Assembly (NCBI RefSeq): GCF_036053395.1
Contig: NZ_CP107942.1
Location: 8,450,501 to 8,514,500 of the forward strand
DNA from: Actinoplanes sp. NBC_00393
GTDB taxonomy: Bacteria > Actinomycetota > Actinomycetes > Mycobacteriales > Micromonosporaceae
Direction of reading: 5' to 3'
DNA length: 64,000 bases
Shown here piece by piece: positions 21,398-36,324 of the stretch. Numbering within the stretch: the first letter of the stretch is position 1; every line of letters starts with the position of its first letter. The translations under genes and the position numbers were made by a program. Under the pieces are notes generated by a model. The model worked only from the letters and a program-made list of their open reading frames with translations, was not told where the DNA came from and ran no database searches.

Positions 21398-21906
21398 GGG
21401 CAGTTCACCCACTCGTCGGTGCCGTCCAGGAAGACCTGCCGCTTCCAGATCGGCAGTCGCGCCTTGGCCTCGTCGACCAGCCGGGCGCAGGCCGCGAACG
21501 CCGCCGCCCGGTGCGCGGTGCTGACCGCGGCGACCAGCGCGACGTCGCCGATCTGCAGGGTGCCGATCCGGTGCGAGACCGCGACCGCATAGACGTCCGG
21601 GTCGGCGGCGATCTCCTCGGCCACCTCGCGCAGGATCGCGCCGGCGGTGGGATGGCCCTCGTACTCGAGCAGGGTCACGCTCCGGCCGTGATCGTGGTCG
21701 CGGACGACGCCCTGGAAGGAGACGACCGCCCCGGCTTTGTTGTCGGCGACGGCGGCCTCGTGCGCGGCCAGGTCCAGCGTCTCGTCGACGACCTCGGCTC
21801 GGGCCACTGAACCTTTTTCAACGTGGCGAGGGCGATCGCGCCCGGTGCTGACCATCGGCTCGGACCCTTCTCGCCCGATGCCAGGTTGAGAAAGGTTCAT
21901 TGTCAT
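21394..21906 (-). CDS. moaE: Molybdopterin synthase catalytic subunit MoaE
   Basis: A 170-residue protein that, with thiocarboxylated MoaD, converts cyclic pyranopterin monophosphate to molybdopterin. Family motifs are GAVVSFQGVVRDHDHGRSV, LLEYEGHPTAGAIL, HRIGTLQIGDVAL and ARLPIWKRQVFLDGTDEWV, which holds the catalytic Lys. A 34-residue N-terminal extension is unusual for the family. ATG 21906 overlaps the moeA stop as ATGA with GGGGAG upstream, which supports the long form through translational coupling; GTG at the ARAEVV site would give the classic length. It is last in the moaC-mog-moeA-moaE operon. Confidence 0.92.
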   Translation of the reverse strand: MTMNLSQPGIGREGSEPMVSTGRDRPRHVEKGSVARAEVVDETLDLAAHEAAVADNKAGAVVSFQGVVRDHDHGRSVTLLEYEGHPTAGAILREVAEEIAADPDVYAVAVSHRIGTLQIGDVALVAAVSTAHRAAAFAACARLVDEAKARLPIWKRQVFLDGTDEWVNCP

Positions 21907-23126
21907 GATCGCTCCCCGGGGGTCAGCGGAAGGGGCAGGAACGGGACCAGGTCGCCGGCCGCGGCCTCGGTGCCGGGCCGGACCACCACGAAACCATGCG
22001 AGTTGGCCAACCCGCGCAGCATCGCTGAACCGACATGACCGACCGGGGTCGCTGTGCGGCCGGTGGAGTCGAGGGCGGCCAGAGCGAGGTGGGTGAAGTC
22101 GCCGCGGCCCGGAACTGCTGCGCCCGCTTCCACCCTGGGCAGTTCCGGCAGCGGGCGGCCGCGCAGGCCGGCCAGCAGCGGGGCGACCAGGGTGACCAGG
22201 GCGATCACCGCGGACTGCGGGTTGCCGGGGAGACCGGCCAGGAACCGCGGCCGGCCGTCCGGACCGAGCACCCGGGCGAGCAGCATCGGGAAGCCGGGTC
22301 GCACGGCGACGGTGTTCACGATGTACTCGCCGCCCAGCTCGGCGAGCGCGGGGTGCAGATGGTCGACCGGGCCGTGCATCGTGCCGCCGGTGGTGCAGAC
22401 CAGGTCGGCGACTTCCAGTCCGGAGCGGATGGCGTCGAGGTGGGCGACCAGGGTGTCCTTCACCGGGCCGGTCACGGTCTGCACGGTGGCGCCGTACCGC
22501 CGCAGCCAGCCGGGCACCTGCGGGCCGAGGGAGTCCCGGACCCGGCCGGCGCCGGGCGGGCCGGACGTCAGCAACTCGTCGCCGAAGACCAGCAGCGCGG
22601 CCCGCGGCTCCGCGAAGACCTGCAGACTCTCGTAACCGCAGGTGGCCGCGACGCCGATGACTGCGGGGTCGACAGCCGTACCGGCCGGGAACAGCTCCTC
22701 GCCGCGGTGCGCCTCCTCGCCGGGCAGACGCCAGTCCGGCAGTCGACGCGGCTCGCCGGAAACCCGGCCGTCCCCGCCGGTCGTCGAGTCCTCGATCCGG
22801 ACCAGCGCAGTGGAACCGTCCGGCACCATCGCGCCGGTGGCGATCTCGACGCAGGTCCCGTCCTCGGTCAGCGGCGGCGGCGTGCTGCCGGCCAGCACCC
22901 GACCCACCGGCCGCCACGGGCCGGTGCCGCGCACCGCCCAGCCGTCGATGCTCGACGTGGGGAACGCGGGCAGGTCGGTGAGGGTCCGCAGCGGCTCAGC
23001 GAGGGTACGGCCGTCCGCCTCGGCGAGCGGCACCTGCTCGGCACCGGTCGCCGCGGCCCGGCCCGCCTCGTAGGCCAGGCGGCGCGCCTGCTCCCAGTCG
23101 ACCGGAAGGTTCTCGTCAGCGCTCAC
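21903..23126 (-). CDS. moeA: Molybdopterin molybdenumtransferase MoeA
   Basis: A 407-residue MoeA that inserts molybdate into adenylated molybdopterin. Characteristic stretches are PAFPTSSIDGWAV (the MDGYA equivalent), VEIATGAMVPDGSTALVRIED, LLVFGDELL, CTTGGTMHGPVDHL, FLAGLPGNPQSAVIALVTLV and a small C-terminal domain. The GTG start at 23126 is 23 bp after the mog stop. The C-terminal end overlaps moaE by four bases. The central loop reads GGTMHGPVDH and not the more usual GGVSVGDYD form, a variant seen in actinobacterial MoeA. Confidence 0.92.
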   Translation of the reverse strand: MSADENLPVDWEQARRLAYEAGRAAATGAEQVPLAEADGRTLAEPLRTLTDLPAFPTSSIDGWAVRGTGPWRPVGRVLAGSTPPPLTEDGTCVEIATGAMVPDGSTALVRIEDSTTGGDGRVSGEPRRLPDWRLPGEEAHRGEELFPAGTAVDPAVIGVAATCGYESLQVFAEPRAALLVFGDELLTSGPPGAGRVRDSLGPQVPGWLRRYGATVQTVTGPVKDTLVAHLDAIRSGLEVADLVCTTGGTMHGPVDHLHPALAELGGEYIVNTVAVRPGFPMLLARVLGPDGRPRFLAGLPGNPQSAVIALVTLVAPLLAGLRGRPLPELPRVEAGAAVPGRGDFTHLALAALDSTGRTATPVGHVGSAMLRGLANSHGFVVVRPGTEAAAGDLVPFLPLPLTPGERS

Positions 23127-23149
23127 AACGGACAGCCTAGTGACCCTTT

Positions 23150-23617
23150 TCAGTGATCCCCGCCGCGGATCTGGTCGACGGTGTGCGCCAACAACGGGCC
23201 CAGGACGGCCAGCCCGTCCTTCGCCCCGCCGGTCGATCCGGGCAGGTTGACGATCAGCGTGCGCCCGGCGACTCCGGCCAGCCCGCGGGAGAGCGCGGCG
23301 GCTGGGACCCGGTCCCGGCTGTAGGCACGGATCGCCTCGGCGATGCCCGGGATCTCGAAGTCGAGCAGGCCGCGGGTGGCCTCCGGGGTGCGGTCGGTCG
23401 GGGTGACGCCGGTTCCGCCGCTGGTCAGCACCACGTCGATGCCATCGGCGACGGCGGTTCGCAGCGCCTCGGCCACCGGGTGGCCGTCCGGTACGACCAC
23501 TGGCTCGTCCACCTCGCAACCGAGCTCCCGCAGGCCGTTGACGAGGCGGGGGCCGCTCGTGTCGGCGTACACCCCGGCGGCGGCGCGGTTCGAGGCGACG
23601 ATCACTCTGGCTTTCAT
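23150..23617 (-). CDS. mog: MogA/MoaB family molybdopterin adenylyltransferase
   Basis: A 155-residue protein of the MogA/MoaB fold that adenylates molybdopterin ahead of metal insertion. The motifs VIVASNRAAAGVYADTSGP and DVVLTSGGTGVTPTDRTPEA (GGTG loop) and the C-terminal LPGSTGGAKDGLAVL are all present. The ATG overlaps the moaC stop (ATGA), so the two are translationally coupled. Confidence 0.92.
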   Translation of the reverse strand: MKARVIVASNRAAAGVYADTSGPRLVNGLRELGCEVDEPVVVPDGHPVAEALRTAVADGIDVVLTSGGTGVTPTDRTPEATRGLLDFEIPGIAEAIRAYSRDRVPAAALSRGLAGVAGRTLIVNLPGSTGGAKDGLAVLGPLLAHTVDQIRGGDH

Positions 23618-24105
23618 GGGCGGTCGTCCGGGCGTACCCAATCCCCGGTCTTCCCGCCCTGCTTGCGCAGCACCCGGACCGCTTCCAGGCTCGCCGCCGG
23701 GTCCACCGCCTTGATCATGTCGATCATGGCGAGCCCGGCCGTCGCGACGGCGGTAAGCGCCTCCATCTCGACGCCCGTCCGGTCGGCGGTCTTGGTGGTC
23801 GCGGTGATCTCCACGGTGGTGTCGGTGGGCTCCAACTCCACGGTGACGCCGTGCAGCCCGATCGGGTGACACAGCGGAATCAGATCCGGCGTCTTCTTCG
23901 CACCCATGATCCCGGCCAGCCGCGCCACGGCGAGGGCGTCACCCTTCGGCAGGCCGTCGCGGCGCAGCAGGTCGATCACCTCAGCGGTCGTGCGGACGCG
24001 GCCGGCGGCGACCGCGCGGCGGTCGCTCACCACCTTGGCGGACACGTCGACCATGCGGGCGGCGCCGGCCTCGTCGACATGAGTCAGCTGGAATTCCTGG
24101 GGCAT
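23614..24105 (-). CDS. moaC: Cyclic pyranopterin monophosphate synthase MoaC
   Basis: A 163-residue MoaC that converts MoaA's cyclo-GTP product to cyclic pyranopterin monophosphate. Signature segments are LTHVDEAGAARMVDVSAK, AGIMGAKKTPDLIPLCHPI (with the active-site Lys and His) and GVEMEALTAVATAGLAMIDM. It is first in the moaC-mog-moeA-moaE operon, 12-15 kb from moaA-moaD. The start ATG is six bases behind TAAGCT, with no ribosome site, so it looks leaderless. Confidence 0.93.
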   Translation of the reverse strand: MPQEFQLTHVDEAGAARMVDVSAKVVSDRRAVAAGRVRTTAEVIDLLRRDGLPKGDALAVARLAGIMGAKKTPDLIPLCHPIGLHGVTVELEPTDTTVEITATTKTADRTGVEMEALTAVATAGLAMIDMIKAVDPAASLEAVRVLRKQGGKTGDWVRPDDRP

Positions 24106-31778: not shown

Positions 31779-32166
31779 CCCGGACTCCCTTCGTCGGCCA
31801 TGGCCGCCATCACGATCGAACTACTCGGGTACGACACTTTCGGCTGATCCGGGCCCGGAGATCAGAAGAACCCTCGGATCAAAGTGCGGGCTCGGGGCTG
31901 GACCACTGTACGAACCGGGCCACCACCTGCCCAACTACCGCGGTGGACGAGTCTCGGGACAACCTGTGGACATCTCCCTTCTGCCTGTGCACACCATGTG
32001 GACAACTTCTGGGGACAGCGCATGTGGCACGTACCTCAGCAGGACTTTTACTGTCCCCAGCTGTGGAGGCAGAAAAGGTTCCAGATCAGGGGAAATACCG
32101 ACGGGCGTGAGCAAGCCGTCGCACTGAGGCGTTGCGGTTCCGTCCCGGGCACGTCACCCTTTTCAC
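31779..32166. promoter_or_regulatory. 388-bp divergent region of dnaB and the giant repeat protein; DnaA-box-like sites
   Basis: TGTGGACAA at 31997-32005 is an exact reverse match to the DnaA box TTGTCCACA, and TGTGGACAT at 31965-31973 differs by one base. The sequence around them repeats GGACA motifs (GGGACAACCTGTGGACA, GTGGACAACTTCTGGGGACA). No gene is visible. DnaA control of dnaB transcription, or DnaA titration, is possible. Confidence 0.5.
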
Positions 32167-35100
32167 GTGGACCAACGGGAGTGGGACTATGGCGCCCGCA
32201 TGTCGCGCGATCGGCGCGCTGCGGAGGCTTGGCCCACCCGGGAGCCGGAGGTCAGCGAGTCCGAGCCCCGATGGGCCTCGCTCGCCGACACCGGCAGCCT
32301 GACGCCGAGCGACGAGGCGCTGACCTGGCAGCGCCGCGCTGACGCATGGGCTCAGCAGGCCGAAGTCGAGCCGTACAGCAGTGGAAGCCAGGCTGTGGAG
32401 CCGGTGAACCGGTGGTCCGAGGTCGCCTCCACGGGCCGCCCCACGTTCCCCGCCGACGGCGTCGGCTGGCGTACTCAGACTTCCGAGTGGCGGGCCACCG
32501 GCGCCCGCTGGCGGCAGACCACCGAGTGGCGGTCGTCGACCGGTTCGCACGTCTGGCGCTCGACCACCGAGGCCTGGCAGAGCGACGAGGACATCACTCC
32601 GGAGAGGGAAAAGCCCGCGATCGCCGGCACTGCCTGGCCGACCCCGGACTCCGACTCCGACTCGTCGACGCCGTCCTGGCAGCAGCAGTCCACCCCTTCC
32701 TGGCAGCAGCAGTCGACTCAGACGCCCTCTTGGCAGGAGTCGTCGACCCAGACGCCGTCCTGGCAGCAGTCCTCGACGCAAACGCCTTCCTGGCAGCAGC
32801 CCTCGACGCAAACTCCCTCCTGGCAGCAGCCCTCGACTTCGACGCCGTCCTGGCAGCGACGCGAACCAGAGGAGCCTTCTTGGCAGCGGCGCGAGCAGCC
32901 GGAGAAACCGTCCTGGCAACGGTCCGACGAGCCCGGCCGGGCCACCCGACCCGTCGAGCAGACCTGGTCCGGCGCCGCCCCGGCGGCCACGCCGTCCTGG
33001 CAGCTGTCGGCCGCCACGACGCCCTCCTGGCAGCGGTCCGACGACTCCCGGGGCCGTGGTTCCGCCGACCAGCCGCCCGGTGAGAACACCGTCGGCATGA
33101 CCCGCTGGGAGCGGACGGAAGCGCCCGGTTGGCAGACTTCCCCGGTCGAGGACGCCCAGCACCTGGTCCGCGAGGACGACCGGGCCGCCTGGCGGCGTGA
33201 TTCCGCCTATGCGGAACAGCCGCCCCGCCGAGGCCGCCGCCGTGCGCCGGAGACCGACGCCACCCCTTCCGGGGGTACGGGTTGGTCGACCGCCGGGGAG
33301 TCGGACAACTGGTCCCGGCACACCGACACCGGCAACATCCAGTCCTCGCCGGACGACACGGGCAGAGCTCCGGAGCAGGCCGGCGGGCGACGCAGCCGCC
33401 GGGCCGAGACGTCCCGGCAAGCAACAACCCCTGTTTCGTACGCGGAACCGACCAGCGCCGCCCCCGCCCCCTATCCCGGCAGTCCCGCGGAAAGCCCGCG
33501 CCCCGCGGCGGACCGTCCCCGACGTGGCCGGCCGAACCGCTACAACGCGAACGTCACCGACTGGCGCGAGGACACCGCTTCCTGGGAGGCGGAGCCGGAC
33601 ACCAGCAACTGGACCCGCGACCCGGACACCGGCCAGTGGAGCCGCGCCGAGGACGATCCGCGCATCCTGGCGTGGCGCGCGGAGGCAGCCCGCCGCGAGT
33701 CGATGAAGGAGAGCGGCGAGGAGGACACCGCTCCCCGCAACGGCCGCAGCCGCCGAGCCGAGCAGCCGAGCGGAGGCGTCCCCGGGGGCCCGCTCCCGAG
33801 CAGTGGCGTTCCCGACGGTTCCGCTGCCGCCTGGCCGGCCAGCGGCGTTCCGGACGCCCGCATCGGCGTGCCGAGCACCCGCCCACGCAGCGCGATGCCC
33901 GGCGCTGCCCGCCCACGCAGCGCCATGCCTGACGCCACCCGCCCACGCAGCGCCATGCCCGACGCCATCCGGCCGAACAGCGCGATGCCGGGCCGCGCCG
34001 CCGGTCCTTCGCCGGACACCACCGGCAGCACGCCGTGGAGCGGCTCGACGGCGCCGAGCGTCCCGGGCGCCTACGAGCCGGGCCGCGGTCGCCGCCAGCG
34101 GGACGACGCTGCCGAGCCCCCGGCCGGCGGTGGCCGTCGCCGGGCACCGGACCCGCAGAGCGCCGAGCCGTGGCAGGCCGCGCCGGAGCCCCGGCCCAGC
34201 CGTCAGTCCCGCCGCCAGAACGCGGAGCCCGAGGAGTACCCGACCGACGGCTGGCGACAGGGCCCTCTGCCGCCCCGCCAGGATCCGCCTCGCGAGCTCC
34301 CGGCCGGCGGCCCGTCCTGGGGCCGCCAGTCGTACGGCAGCCCCCGCGAACTGCCGGCCGGCAGCTCCCCTTGGCCCGACACCGGCCGCCAGACCAACGG
34401 CACCCCGCGCGATGTCCCTGCGAACGGCTCGCCGTGGCCCGACAGCAGCCGCCAGACCAACGGCGCCCCGCGCGACGTCCCTGCGAACGGCTCGCCGTGG
34501 CCCGAGAGCAGCCGCCAGACCAGCGGCGGCTCTCGCGACCTGCCCACAAGCGGTTCCCCGTGGCCCGACACCGGCCGCCAGGCGAACGGCCGGCCCGACG
34601 GTGGTCGCCAGGGCTATCCGGCACGGGAGCTTCCCGCCGGTGGGCCGTCGTGGGCGGAGCAGGAACCTCGCCCCGGCTACCGCGGCCAGGGCCCGGCCAG
34701 CGATCCGTGGGCTGAGCAGGAACAGCGCCGGCCTAGTCGCGACCAGTCGTCCTGGGGGAACCAGGACGGACGCAGGCCGTACCGGGACCAGGGTCCTGGC
34801 CGGGACGTGCCTTCCTGGGCCGATCCGGAACCCCGCCCGGGCTACCGCGACCAGGGCCCGGCGCGAGACATGCCGTCCGGCGCGCCGTCCTGGTCCGATC
34901 AAACTCGTGCGGTTCCTTCCGATGAGCCGTCGTGGGCCGATCGGGAGACCCGCCGTCCCGGCTACGGCGCCTCACGCGAACTTCCCGCCGGCGGTTCACC
35001 GCGTCCCGACACCGCTCGCCAGCCCTACCCGGCCCGGGAGCTTCCCGCCGGGCCGTCCTGGGCCGCGCCGGAGCCTCGCCGCCCCACCTACGGCACGCCA

Positions 35101-36324
35101 CGCGCGCTGCCCGCGGGCAGCGGCGCCTGGCCCGAGCCCGGCGGCCCGACCCGTCCAGACGCGCGCGAACCCGGCAGCCCGGGCTGGCAGGACCCCCGTC
35201 AGCCCGGCGGCCCGACCCGTCCGGACGCCCGCGGATCCGGCAGCCCAAGCTGGCAGGACTCCCGCGAGCCCGGCTGGCAGGACTCCCGTGACTCCGGCGG
35301 CGCGAGCTGGCAGGAATCCGGCGGCCCGGGCTGGCAGGAACCCGGCGGCGCGAGGTGGCAAGAACCTGGCAGCCCTGGCCGTCCGGATCCCCGGCGACCC
35401 CAGCCGGGCGGTCCGACCTGGGCTGACTCGACGTCGCGGGACGCACGGCGGGCGCCCTACGGTGCGGCCGGGGCCGCGCAGTGGCCGGACCCGCTGAGCC
35501 AGCCACGCCGGGCCAGCGCGCCGGCCTACGGCGCCTCCGAGGCACAGCGCGGCTTCGACGACCGGGACGATCTGCCTGGTGGAGGCGGCTACGGCCAGGC
35601 TCCCGCGGCCAACGACTGGCTCACCGCCGAGCGTGCCGCACGCCGCGGCCCCCAGTACCGCGACAGCGCCGGACGGGACGGTGAGACCGACTGGCGCCAG
35701 GAGCTGTCCCGGGACAATGCCCTCGAGGAGGGTGAATCCCGCCGTTACGACACGTCGGACTTTCCGCCCTTTCGGCCAAGTGGGTCCGCCACCGTCGCCG
35801 GATCGTCGAACCTGGCGCTGAGTGCCACCTCGGTCATCTCCCGGGTGCCTGAGGCACCGGCCGCCGACGTCGTCGAGGAGGACACCTCCTGGCCGCCGCG
35901 TCGCACCACCGGCGCGTTCCAGGGCACCGGCTCCTACGAGCGCCGCCCGGTCAGTGGGAACCTGGTCACCGGCGGGGGCAGCGATCTGCTCAACCCGGAC
36001 GACGACGAGGAGGACGAGGAGACCACCGGCGGTCCGCTGGCCGCCGTCGGTTACACAGTCGTCTGGTACGGCGTGCCCGTGATCCTCTTCGTCGCCGGCA
36101 TGTTCCTACTCAACAGCGGCCAGCGCAACCATGCTCTGGACACCCTCGCCGGCGCAGCCCCCGAGTTCGGCGTCTCGCTCGCGCTGAGCATGCTGGTGGC
36201 GATCTGCCTGCGCTGGGCCACCTCCGCCTGGAAGTCCGCCAGCGTCGGCCTGGCTGCCGCGGTGGTCGGTGGCGGCCTGGCCACCGTGCTGAGCTCCGCC
36301 ATCACCGGCAACAGCCTCAGCTGA
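32167..36324 (+). CDS. Giant Trp-rich disordered repeat protein with C-terminal membrane anchor
   Basis: A 1385-residue protein. Residues 1-1285 are predicted disordered by composition: Ser, Pro, Arg, Gly and Glu rich, yet with a strikingly regular Trp. Repeat blocks follow one another: TPSWQQ units (~168-293), RPRSAMPDA units (~575-606), 21-residue units around PRDVPANGSPWPD (~735-800), and WQD/WQE units (~995-1065). An acidic stretch (DDDEEDEETT) precedes three C-terminal helices (VGYTVVWYGVPVILFVAG, FGVSLALSMLVAICLRW, VGLAAAVVGGGLATVLSSAI). I recognise no catalytic domain. It probably sits on the inner membrane as a long cytoplasmic brush or scaffold. GTG 32167 was chosen; ATG 32200 is possible. 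Confidence 0.78.
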   Translation: MDQREWDYGARMSRDRRAAEAWPTREPEVSESEPRWASLADTGSLTPSDEALTWQRRADAWAQQAEVEPYSSGSQAVEPVNRWSEVASTGRPTFPADGVGWRTQTSEWRATGARWRQTTEWRSSTGSHVWRSTTEAWQSDEDITPEREKPAIAGTAWPTPDSDSDSSTPSWQQQSTPSWQQQSTQTPSWQESSTQTPSWQQSSTQTPSWQQPSTQTPSWQQPSTSTPSWQRREPEEPSWQRREQPEKPSWQRSDEPGRATRPVEQTWSGAAPAATPSWQLSAATTPSWQRSDDSRGRGSADQPPGENTVGMTRWERTEAPGWQTSPVEDAQHLVREDDRAAWRRDSAYAEQPPRRGRRRAPETDATPSGGTGWSTAGESDNWSRHTDTGNIQSSPDDTGRAPEQAGGRRSRRAETSRQATTPVSYAEPTSAAPAPYPGSPAESPRPAADRPRRGRPNRYNANVTDWREDTASWEAEPDTSNWTRDPDTGQWSRAEDDPRILAWRAEAARRESMKESGEEDTAPRNGRSRRAEQPSGGVPGGPLPSSGVPDGSAAAWPASGVPDARIGVPSTRPRSAMPGAARPRSAMPDATRPRSAMPDAIRPNSAMPGRAAGPSPDTTGSTPWSGSTAPSVPGAYEPGRGRRQRDDAAEPPAGGGRRRAPDPQSAEPWQAAPEPRPSRQSRRQNAEPEEYPTDGWRQGPLPPRQDPPRELPAGGPSWGRQSYGSPRELPAGSSPWPDTGRQTNGTPRDVPANGSPWPDSSRQTNGAPRDVPANGSPWPESSRQTSGGSRDLPTSGSPWPDTGRQANGRPDGGRQGYPARELPAGGPSWAEQEPRPGYRGQGPASDPWAEQEQRRPSRDQSSWGNQDGRRPYRDQGPGRDVPSWADPEPRPGYRDQGPARDMPSGAPSWSDQTRAVPSDEPSWADRETRRPGYGASRELPAGGSPRPDTARQPYPARELPAGPSWAAPEPRRPTYGTPRALPAGSGAWPEPGGPTRPDAREPGSPGWQDPRQPGGPTRPDARGSGSPSWQDSREPGWQDSRDSGGASWQESGGPGWQEPGGARWQEPGSPGRPDPRRPQPGGPTWADSTSRDARRAPYGAAGAAQWPDPLSQPRRASAPAYGASEAQRGFDDRDDLPGGGGYGQAPAANDWLTAERAARRGPQYRDSAGRDGETDWRQELSRDNALEEGESRRYDTSDFPPFRPSGSATVAGSSNLALSATSVISRVPEAPAADVVEEDTSWPPRRTTGAFQGTGSYERRPVSGNLVTGGGSDLLNPDDDEEDEETTGGPLAAVGYTVVWYGVPVILFVAGMFLLNSGQRNHALDTLAGAAPEFGVSLALSMLVAICLRWATSAWKSASVGLAAAVVGGGLATVLSSAITGNSLS
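32668..33045 (+). repeat. 30-bp coding repeats (TPSWQQxSTQ)
   Basis: Eleven PSWQ motifs within about 125 residues. The central ones recur at exactly ten residues (30 bp), as TPSWQQSSTQ and TPSWQQPSTQ, then drift to PSWQRRE, PSWQRSD and PSWQLSA. The DNA units are nearly identical in the core, so they arose by recent tandem duplication. Confidence 0.85.
33889..33987 (+). repeat. 27-bp coding repeats (RPRSAMPDA)
   Basis: Four 9-residue units: RPRSAMPGA, RPRSAMPDA, RPRSAMPDA and RPNSAMPGR. The DNA reads CGCCCACGCAGCGCCATGCC with few changes between units. Confidence 0.85.
34380..34585 (+). repeat. 63-bp coding repeats (21-residue PRDVPANGSPWPD units)
   Basis: Three tandem 21-residue units of the form GRQTNGTPRDVPANGSPWPD with one more residue. 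The last has PRD changed to SRD and VPAN to LPTS. The DNA identity between the first two units is very high. Confidence 0.8.

Follow-up and report, generated by a model that had tools for sequence, protein, structure and literature searches.

The 64,000-nucleotide stretch of the Actinoplanes sp. NBC_00393 genome analysed here (the window) carries beside dnaB a 1385-codon open reading frame (+ strand, 32167-36324). We tentatively read its product as a lineage-wide multivalent scaffold that is tethered to the membrane and perhaps switched by Thr kinases, and hold this reading at a probability of roughly 0.42. Three C-terminal helices would anchor the protein in the plasma membrane (N-in, C-out), and a long, putatively disordered tail with Arg balanced by Asp and Glu would reach into the cytoplasm; its spaced Trps, accompanied by Arg and few Lys, would serve as weak sticky sites, so that at the membrane many copies would assemble into a layer that is dense, dynamic and multivalent. 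Partners would be bound by an N-terminal peptide, a Trp-rich module, T-D-T-G-x-W units and boxes just before the membrane. The likely switch is the Thr at -3 from Trp: once phosphorylated by Ser/Thr kinases of the PknB type, it would alter stickiness, recruit FHA-domain proteins, or both. FHA-domain adaptors are used in actinobacterial cell-wall and division control, and the protein may have a role in polar growth, septation or the coupling of these to replication. What makes the case worth attention is a lineage-conserved protein that at least partly escapes annotation and a tail that follows readable rules (Trps kept apart, Thr at -3); if these rules mean phosphorylation-controlled self-association, the family, whose tails range from near zero to ~1600 residues, would offer a natural system in bacteria for studying how disordered membrane scaffolds work and evolve.

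Membrane anchor and predicted cytoplasmic tail

Seventy-nine whole open reading frames (ORFs), chosen by their anchor, were read from the window, 18 named loci and 60 chosen stretches of matched genomes. The whole proteins span 115-1707 amino acids (aa), a range of about 15-fold, and throughout the 79 the final ~112 aa with the three helices align, while the tail before them runs from almost nothing to ~1600 aa. An earlier sequence-only reading of this DNA had described a membrane-anchored C-terminus of three helices preceded by an acidic stretch, and had proposed searching relatives with the C-terminal end; helices and acidic stretch are indeed there, and the search returned a conserved three-helix end behind a Trp tail of variable length. 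In the window protein the 19-residue hydropathy exceeds 1.5 only from aa 1290 onward, and no hydrophobic stretch was found before aa 1250 (top 19-aa Kyte-Doolittle mean 0.95).

With loop limits taken from the window protein, and the rows being related, the loop between transmembrane helices (TM) 2 and 3 carries a net positive charge in all 79 proteins; the TM1-TM2 loop, on the same limits, has a mean charge of -0.94 and holds two cysteines in 45 proteins, none in 34 and one in 0. Because the TM2-TM3 loop is positive and the Cys of the TM1-TM2 loop are paired or absent, the tail is probably cytoplasmic and the TM1-TM2 loop outside (N-in, C-out). These topology signals speak against a cell-envelope tether or brush outside the membrane, which the sequence-only reading had offered and which is unlikely since the tail is thereby placed in the cytoplasm; its companion idea, that aromatic stickers may make the protein an organising scaffold, is still a good one. 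AlphaFold2 predicts the anchor as three helices at low confidence (mean predicted local distance difference test, pLDDT, 57), and this model, like that of the N-terminal module (46), is too weak for fold searching. The parts of the protein and its upstream region, in window positions, are as follows.

32167..36324 (+): whole gene, 1385 aa, predicted cytoplasmic tail (~aa 1-1290) plus three-helix anchor
32167..32232 (+): conserved N-terminal peptide MDQREWDYGARMSRDRRAAEAW (aa 1-22)
32167..32577 (+): conserved Trp-rich module (aa 1-137), 58 invariant columns in 23 proteins
32464..32577 (+): WR-T block (aa 100-137), Trp spacing 6-9 residues
32668..32922 (+): variable TPSWQQ array, 30/33/90-bp DNA repeats, shorter in L049
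33157..33198 (+): conserved island QHLVREDDRAAWRR (aa 331-344)
33319..33342 (+): TDTG core HTDTGNIQ (aa 385-392)
33598..33663 (+): DTSNW/DTGQW island (aa 478-499), cross-genus T-x-x-W motif
33876..33989 (+): variable RPRSAMPD array, 30-bp repeats
34321..34590 (+): variable GSPWPD array, 63-bp repeats (21 aa)
35133..35370 (+): variable repeats with W, units of 24/33/66 bp
35686..35790 (+): conserved pre-membrane island TDWRQELSRDNALEEGESRRYDTSDFPPFRPSGSA (aa 1174-1208)
35983..36021 (+): acidic stretch DLLNPDDDEEDEE (aa 1273-1285)
36037..36111 (+): predicted membrane helix 1 (aa 1291-1315)
36166..36210 (+): predicted membrane helix 2 (aa 1334-1348)
36211..36237 (+): positive, putatively cytoplasmic loop RWATSAWKS (aa 1349-1357), net positive in 79/79
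36238..36303 (+): predicted membrane helix 3, Gly-rich (aa 1358-1379)
31779..32166 (no strand): 388-bp divergent intergenic region between dnaB and the gene, DnaA-box-like sites at 31965 and 31997

Tryptophan spacing and the T-x-x-W motif

The window protein holds 66 Trps, 63 of them in its first 1273 aa (4.9%), together with just 4 Lys and 1 Cys in 1385 residues, and the net charge over those 1273 aa is -15. As background we used 331 crude ORFs from 20 genome stretches and the window, a set that includes two antisense shadow ORFs within the gene; Trp makes up 1.5% of this set and 1.3% of its low-hydrophobicity segments (8622 residues), and the eight short segments (60-127 aa) that reach at least 4% include one antisense shadow inside the gene. 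Among the homologues, most Actinoplanes-type and Micromonospora tails have 4-5% Trp, with three Actinoplanes-type tails at 2.5-2.9%, and nearly all long tails have less than 1% Lys, Arg balanced by Asp/Glu, and few aliphatic residues.

Motif and spacing tests were made on 22, 20 or 17 representative tails, or on the 58 of the 79 with at least 250 aa and at least 10 Trps. For them, ORF starts that reached too far upstream were cut back to the conserved N-terminal peptide; the composition table is untrimmed. (The length of 788 for L098 is inflated by an ORF start that overlaps dnaB; this protein is not a representative and falls below the Trp limit of the spacing test.) The 63 Trps of the window tail are nowhere closer than 6 residues, and the variance of their window counts, at 0.63 of the mean over 500 shuffles, is lower than in any of these; the regular recurrence of Trp claimed from sequence is thus borne out as a spacing of aromatics more even than chance, the pattern looked for in stickers. 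Over 17 representatives, Trp lies within five residues of Trp in 6 counts versus ~177 expected (pairs counted twice), each of the ten positions around Trp (±5) having Trp 0 or 1 times versus 17.7 expected, and in 40 of the 58 tails gaps of 4 or less are rare (a share reached by fewer than 5% of shuffles). Much of the regularity beyond residue ~165 derives from DNA tandem repeats (15-90 bp units); homologues with other repeats also keep their Trps apart. Aligned-column Trps of the window protein are retained at 59 of 60 positions in L049, 54 of 60 in L031 and 48 of 59 in L053.

About 1285 residues had been called low-complexity, which suits the repeats and is wrong for the first ~137 aa. These are strongly conserved, the best-conserved part of the tail, with 58 invariant columns in 23 Actinoplanes-type proteins and all 12 of the window's Trps in aa 1-137 invariant in the same set. 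AlphaFold2 gave no confident fold for aa 1-165 (mean pLDDT 46); it placed three low-confidence strands over aa 100-138 (block pLDDT 56-63), so that a small WR-T sheet there is possible. Farther along the tail, the exact searched form of island QHLVREDDRAAWRR was not found in 9 of the 23 Actinoplanes-type proteins.

Gapped three-residue patterns are over-represented in 22 representative tails (20 shuffles, largest shuffle z 6.6); TG.W has a z of 9.1, with 58 occurrences versus 3.8 expected, in 18 of the 22, and F-W-S-G...R-L pre-membrane boxes occur in about half of them. Across the listed sites a nine-residue unit W-x-R-x-T-D-T-G-x-W is seen, with T-D-T-G-x-W as its recurrent core; the strict motif [DE]T[GS]xW is present in 15 of 20 representatives and the looser [DEH]TGx[WILYF] in 48 of 61 tails (L098 included). 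A DNA pattern for the core, ACNGAYACNGGNNNNTGG, has 2 sites in the source genome and none in the gene (control 0), whose own copy reads P-D-T-G-Q-W. Around the 471 Trps of 20 representatives, Thr stands at -3 in 130 cases versus 32.0 expected, about four-fold, and Ser in 36 versus 46.9; after removal of similar contexts the Thr count is 97 versus 27.0 expected (397 contexts), and 19 of the 20 representatives lie above expectation. The background shows no such excess (93 versus 90.5 expected; 285 crude genes, 1555 Trps).

For sites of bacterial Ser/Thr kinases and FHA domains one would expect Thr, not Ser, and a large hydrophobic residue at +3, and the tails show just this arrangement. The source genome has five FHA matches, two of them ~44 kb from dnaA. 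According to excerpts of PMC5845002, the substrates of PknA and PknB are phosphorylated mostly on Thr, and the M. tuberculosis kinase motifs are E-x-x-pT, pT-x-P and P-pT.

Reading frame, lineage and the dnaB locus

The position, strand and length given for the gene by the sequence-only reading are correct, and the lack of a known domain is supported; its account of the neighbours is refined to dnaB divergent and rplI convergent. The start lies 388 bp from divergent dnaB and the end precedes convergent rplI, with DnaB and L9 identified by Pfam as the flanking products. Along the gene, G+C at third codon positions (GC3) is 0.80-0.90 and at second positions (GC2) high, 0.57-0.75 by segment. Compared with close relative L049, substitutions at codon positions 1/2/3 number 26/23/88 in aa 1-360, 180/161/287 in the middle with its many repeats (the least certain part of the alignment), 19/20/51 in aa 1091-1270 and 6/3/28 at the C-terminus, a pattern that points to protein-coding constraint in the gene's frame, weakest in the middle. 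Because relatives keep the frame open (frameshifts in close relatives had been named as a refutation, and the frame is intact there) and substitutions are biased to third positions, we take the gene as real and reject a spurious ORF; for the same reason a 938-aa antisense ORF overlapping it at 32086-34902 (-) is a shadow of high G+C. Our crude gene caller (GC3 minus GC2) missed the gene and called two short antisense shadows within it. Support for the GTG start (32167) comes from the conserved N-terminal peptide, which begins VDQREWDYG in the window protein and reads VDYRDW..G or VSYRDW..G in other genera.

The window protein has no Pfam or NCBIfam match at E <= 0.001, its PDB sequence matches are insignificant (best E 0.04 and 0.17), and members of A1, a profile that we built from 57 anchors, searched singly against Pfam reach a best E of 0.0018 (DUF7937). 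No description of the protein was recognised in the open-licence PMC literature, and the excerpts of PMC4389566 and PMC7682106 hold nothing on it; by these searches the family is undescribed, without a Pfam or NCBIfam family or a significant PDB relative. The Actinoplanes-type locus L051 has a 1485-aa ORF, while its apparent database counterpart, P0008 (AMIS_80870), is a 124-aa hypothetical protein; judging from this pair, annotation may miss the tail.

Searched with the C-terminal 155 aa, the source genome gives one match, and 171 of 200 same-family genomes are matched (E <= 0.001). A1 added 4 matches among 20 further family genomes (19 unmatched by the C-terminal search, and G181). In an order-wide search that scored the best 14 candidates or fewer per genome, A1 matched 56 of 298 genomes, including G049 (unmatched by the C-terminal search) and G117; outside the family it gave three weak matches, G233, G337 and G412 (E 5e-6 to 7e-4), a scope compatible with remote relatives elsewhere, and weak second matches occur inside the family too. 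Two such candidates, L180 (G233) and L183 (G197), were rejected as homologues: they are membrane ORFs without a Trp-rich tail, which we ascribe to chance membrane similarity. Neither these two nor L184 (G065) has a dnaB or rplI match within the fetched stretch. The 18 named loci come from Actinoplanes, Paractinoplanes, Phytohabitans, Asanoa, Micromonospora and Planosporangium, genera that we take to be Micromonosporaceae.

The gene is divergent from dnaB at all 77 of the 79 loci where dnaB is visible and convergent with rplI at all 75 where rplI is visible, other genes sometimes lying between; in G013 and G014, where rplI is ~335 kb and ~28 kb away, it is still beside dnaB. Among unmatched genomes, G036 and G181 have a dnaB-rplI gap of only 611 bp and 409 bp, and at five unmatched loci (L172, L173, L175, L176 and L177) dnaB is not present or the gap holds other genes. 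The gene had been called an insertion between dnaB and rplI. Since it is found family-wide at the same place with occasional absence, it is not one: the divergent slot next to dnaB is the usual arrangement of the lineage and, on this distribution, ancestral. At L169, L171 and L174 (three genomes of two genera, gene unmatched) a 494-582-aa ORF fills the same slot, that of L171 looking lipoprotein-like. In Micromonospora loci L036, L037, L038, L040-L042, L044 and L045, among others, dnaB matches are partial, as if dnaB carried intein-type inserts.

The gene shares the DnaA-box-like control region of dnaB. TGTGGACA/TGTCCACA sites, which resemble the DnaA box consensus, number 98 in 37.8 kb of dnaB-upstream DNA (420 bp at each of 90 loci) versus 14 in the remaining 867 kb of these loci, a density ~160-fold higher; 66 of the 90 upstream regions have at least one TGTGGACA site and 24 have none. 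TGTGGACA or TGTGGATA sites also occur in the dnaB-upstream DNA of loci at which no copy of the gene turned up (L169, L170, L178), as well as of two other families (L179, L182), and because of this the sites belong to dnaB. It may be that dnaB is under DnaA control or that the region titrates DnaA. The source genome is one contig of 11.4 Mb, in which the gene lies ~48 kb from the dnaA match, and the origin-proximal placement suggested from the sequence holds in this sense.

Alternative readings and known systems

Several observations weigh against the scaffold. Eight proteins of some genera are only 115-176 aa long and virtually tail-less, so the tail is not needed everywhere for whatever the anchor does, and in G181 (genus group g4), which has no match and a dnaB-rplI gap of 409 bp, the gene looks dispensable for that reason. 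Some long tails are Trp-poor (L082 1.2%, L107 1.7%, L108 1.6%, L101 1.6%), L082 also being without the Thr(-3) excess; window-level evenness of Trp reaches the 5% level in just 21 of 58 tails, and 5 of 20 representatives, among them the two from Micromonospora, lack the strict [DE]T[GS]xW motif. If the WR-T block folds, which it may, its Trps would be structural rather than stickers. As given in excerpts of PMC5845002, moreover, the M. tuberculosis kinase motifs differ from T-x-x-W, and the match is partial.

The tail could be a passive entropic spacer or crowding brush in which bulk counts and motifs do not, where drift in length through tandem-repeat slippage does no harm, and high G+C and avoidance of folding determine the composition; the ~15-fold length variation of whole proteins, the expanding and contracting repeats and the near-neutral polyampholyte character all suit such a spacer, which we nonetheless think unlikely, as Trp stands at 4.9% versus 1.3% in the genome's low-hydrophobicity segments, the Thr(-3) excess is lacking in background genes, the Trps keep apart, and the N-terminal module has its 58 invariant columns in 23 proteins. 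Somewhat less unlikely is a small membrane signalling protein or adaptor whose anchor is the essential part, with an outward loop often closed by a disulfide and the tail as a docking arm for a few folded partners, no condensate being formed. That the anchor is the sole part kept in all 79 proteins (which were chosen by it), that the TM1-TM2 loop has paired Cys, and that the tail has discrete conserved islands and a low-confidence beta block would fit it; some 60 Trps, at this density and spacing, exceed the needs of a few docking sites.

The locus invites a replication-linked reading, in which the protein, expressed from a DnaA-box-bearing region shared with dnaB, would tie replisome or origin to the membrane. 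The gene is divergent beside dnaB even in G013 and G014, where rplI lies elsewhere, sites are enriched upstream of dnaB, and dnaA is 48 kb away; we consider this improbable, however, because the DnaA-box-like sites belong to dnaB (L169, L170, L178, L179, L182), 24 of 90 upstream regions are without TGTGGACA, and neighbourhood is weak as functional evidence. An exported, choline-binding-like surface or cell-wall-binding Trp-repeat protein is disfavoured to the point of being very improbable: its W/T/G-rich short repeats have a superficial likeness to wall-binding repeats, but no hydrophobic stretch precedes aa 1250, hydropathy and loop charges give no sign of a signal peptide or exported N-terminus, the topology signals put the tail inside, and no Pfam repeat family is matched. 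The scaffold can itself be drawn in its fullest form, as a phosphorylation-switched Trp-sticker membrane condensate with a T-x-x-W code read by FHA proteins, co-evolved with the dnaB control region and coupling chromosome replication to polar growth or septation in Micromonosporaceae; so specific a version is a long shot.

A resemblance to Asp-box and PQQ repeats was dropped, since the spacing differs. Sticker-and-spacer disordered proteins form condensates via spaced aromatics, and the window protein resembles that class in its spaced aromatics and in being Arg-rich, Lys-poor and near-neutral; it differs in that its stickers would be Trp rather than Tyr/Phe, it is membrane-anchored, and condensation is putative. 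StkP and PknB have phosphorylated juxtamembrane regions, that of PknB interacting with FhaA (excerpts of PMC12077195); the likeness to these lies in a Thr-bearing cytoplasmic stretch beside a membrane helix, while the window protein is without a kinase domain and its phosphorylation is putative.

GlpR (Cgl0885) of C. glutamicum is, as excerpts of PMC10522489 describe it, a 3-TM receptor of the gephyrin-like Glp and itself a binder of Wag31/DivIVA; with its cytoplasmic disordered regions it links divisome and elongasome, and so division and polar growth. Sequence signals in the window protein agree with this in having three membrane helices and a cytoplasmic disordered region. GlpR, however, has two oppositely charged intrinsically disordered regions (residues 27-218 and 263-340; same excerpts), whereas the window protein has one near-neutral N-terminal tail followed by three clustered C-terminal helices, and the GlpR gene lies near glp (Cgl0883/Cgl0885), which the window gene does not. 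In the source genome a galU/moeA/acetyltransferase cluster followed by a membrane-protein-like ORF lies at ~7.68 Mb (names by our own reading of the ORFs). The nearest of five MoeA matches, ~9 kb from the gene at 21903-24105 (-), is beside a moaC-like gene, and this pair looks like ordinary molybdopterin genes, not a Glp locus. Because the order of parts differs and the galU/moeA/acetyltransferase/membrane-protein cluster sits elsewhere, the window protein is not GlpR, which, compared by description in the excerpts of PMC10522489, is the closest described protein that we found.

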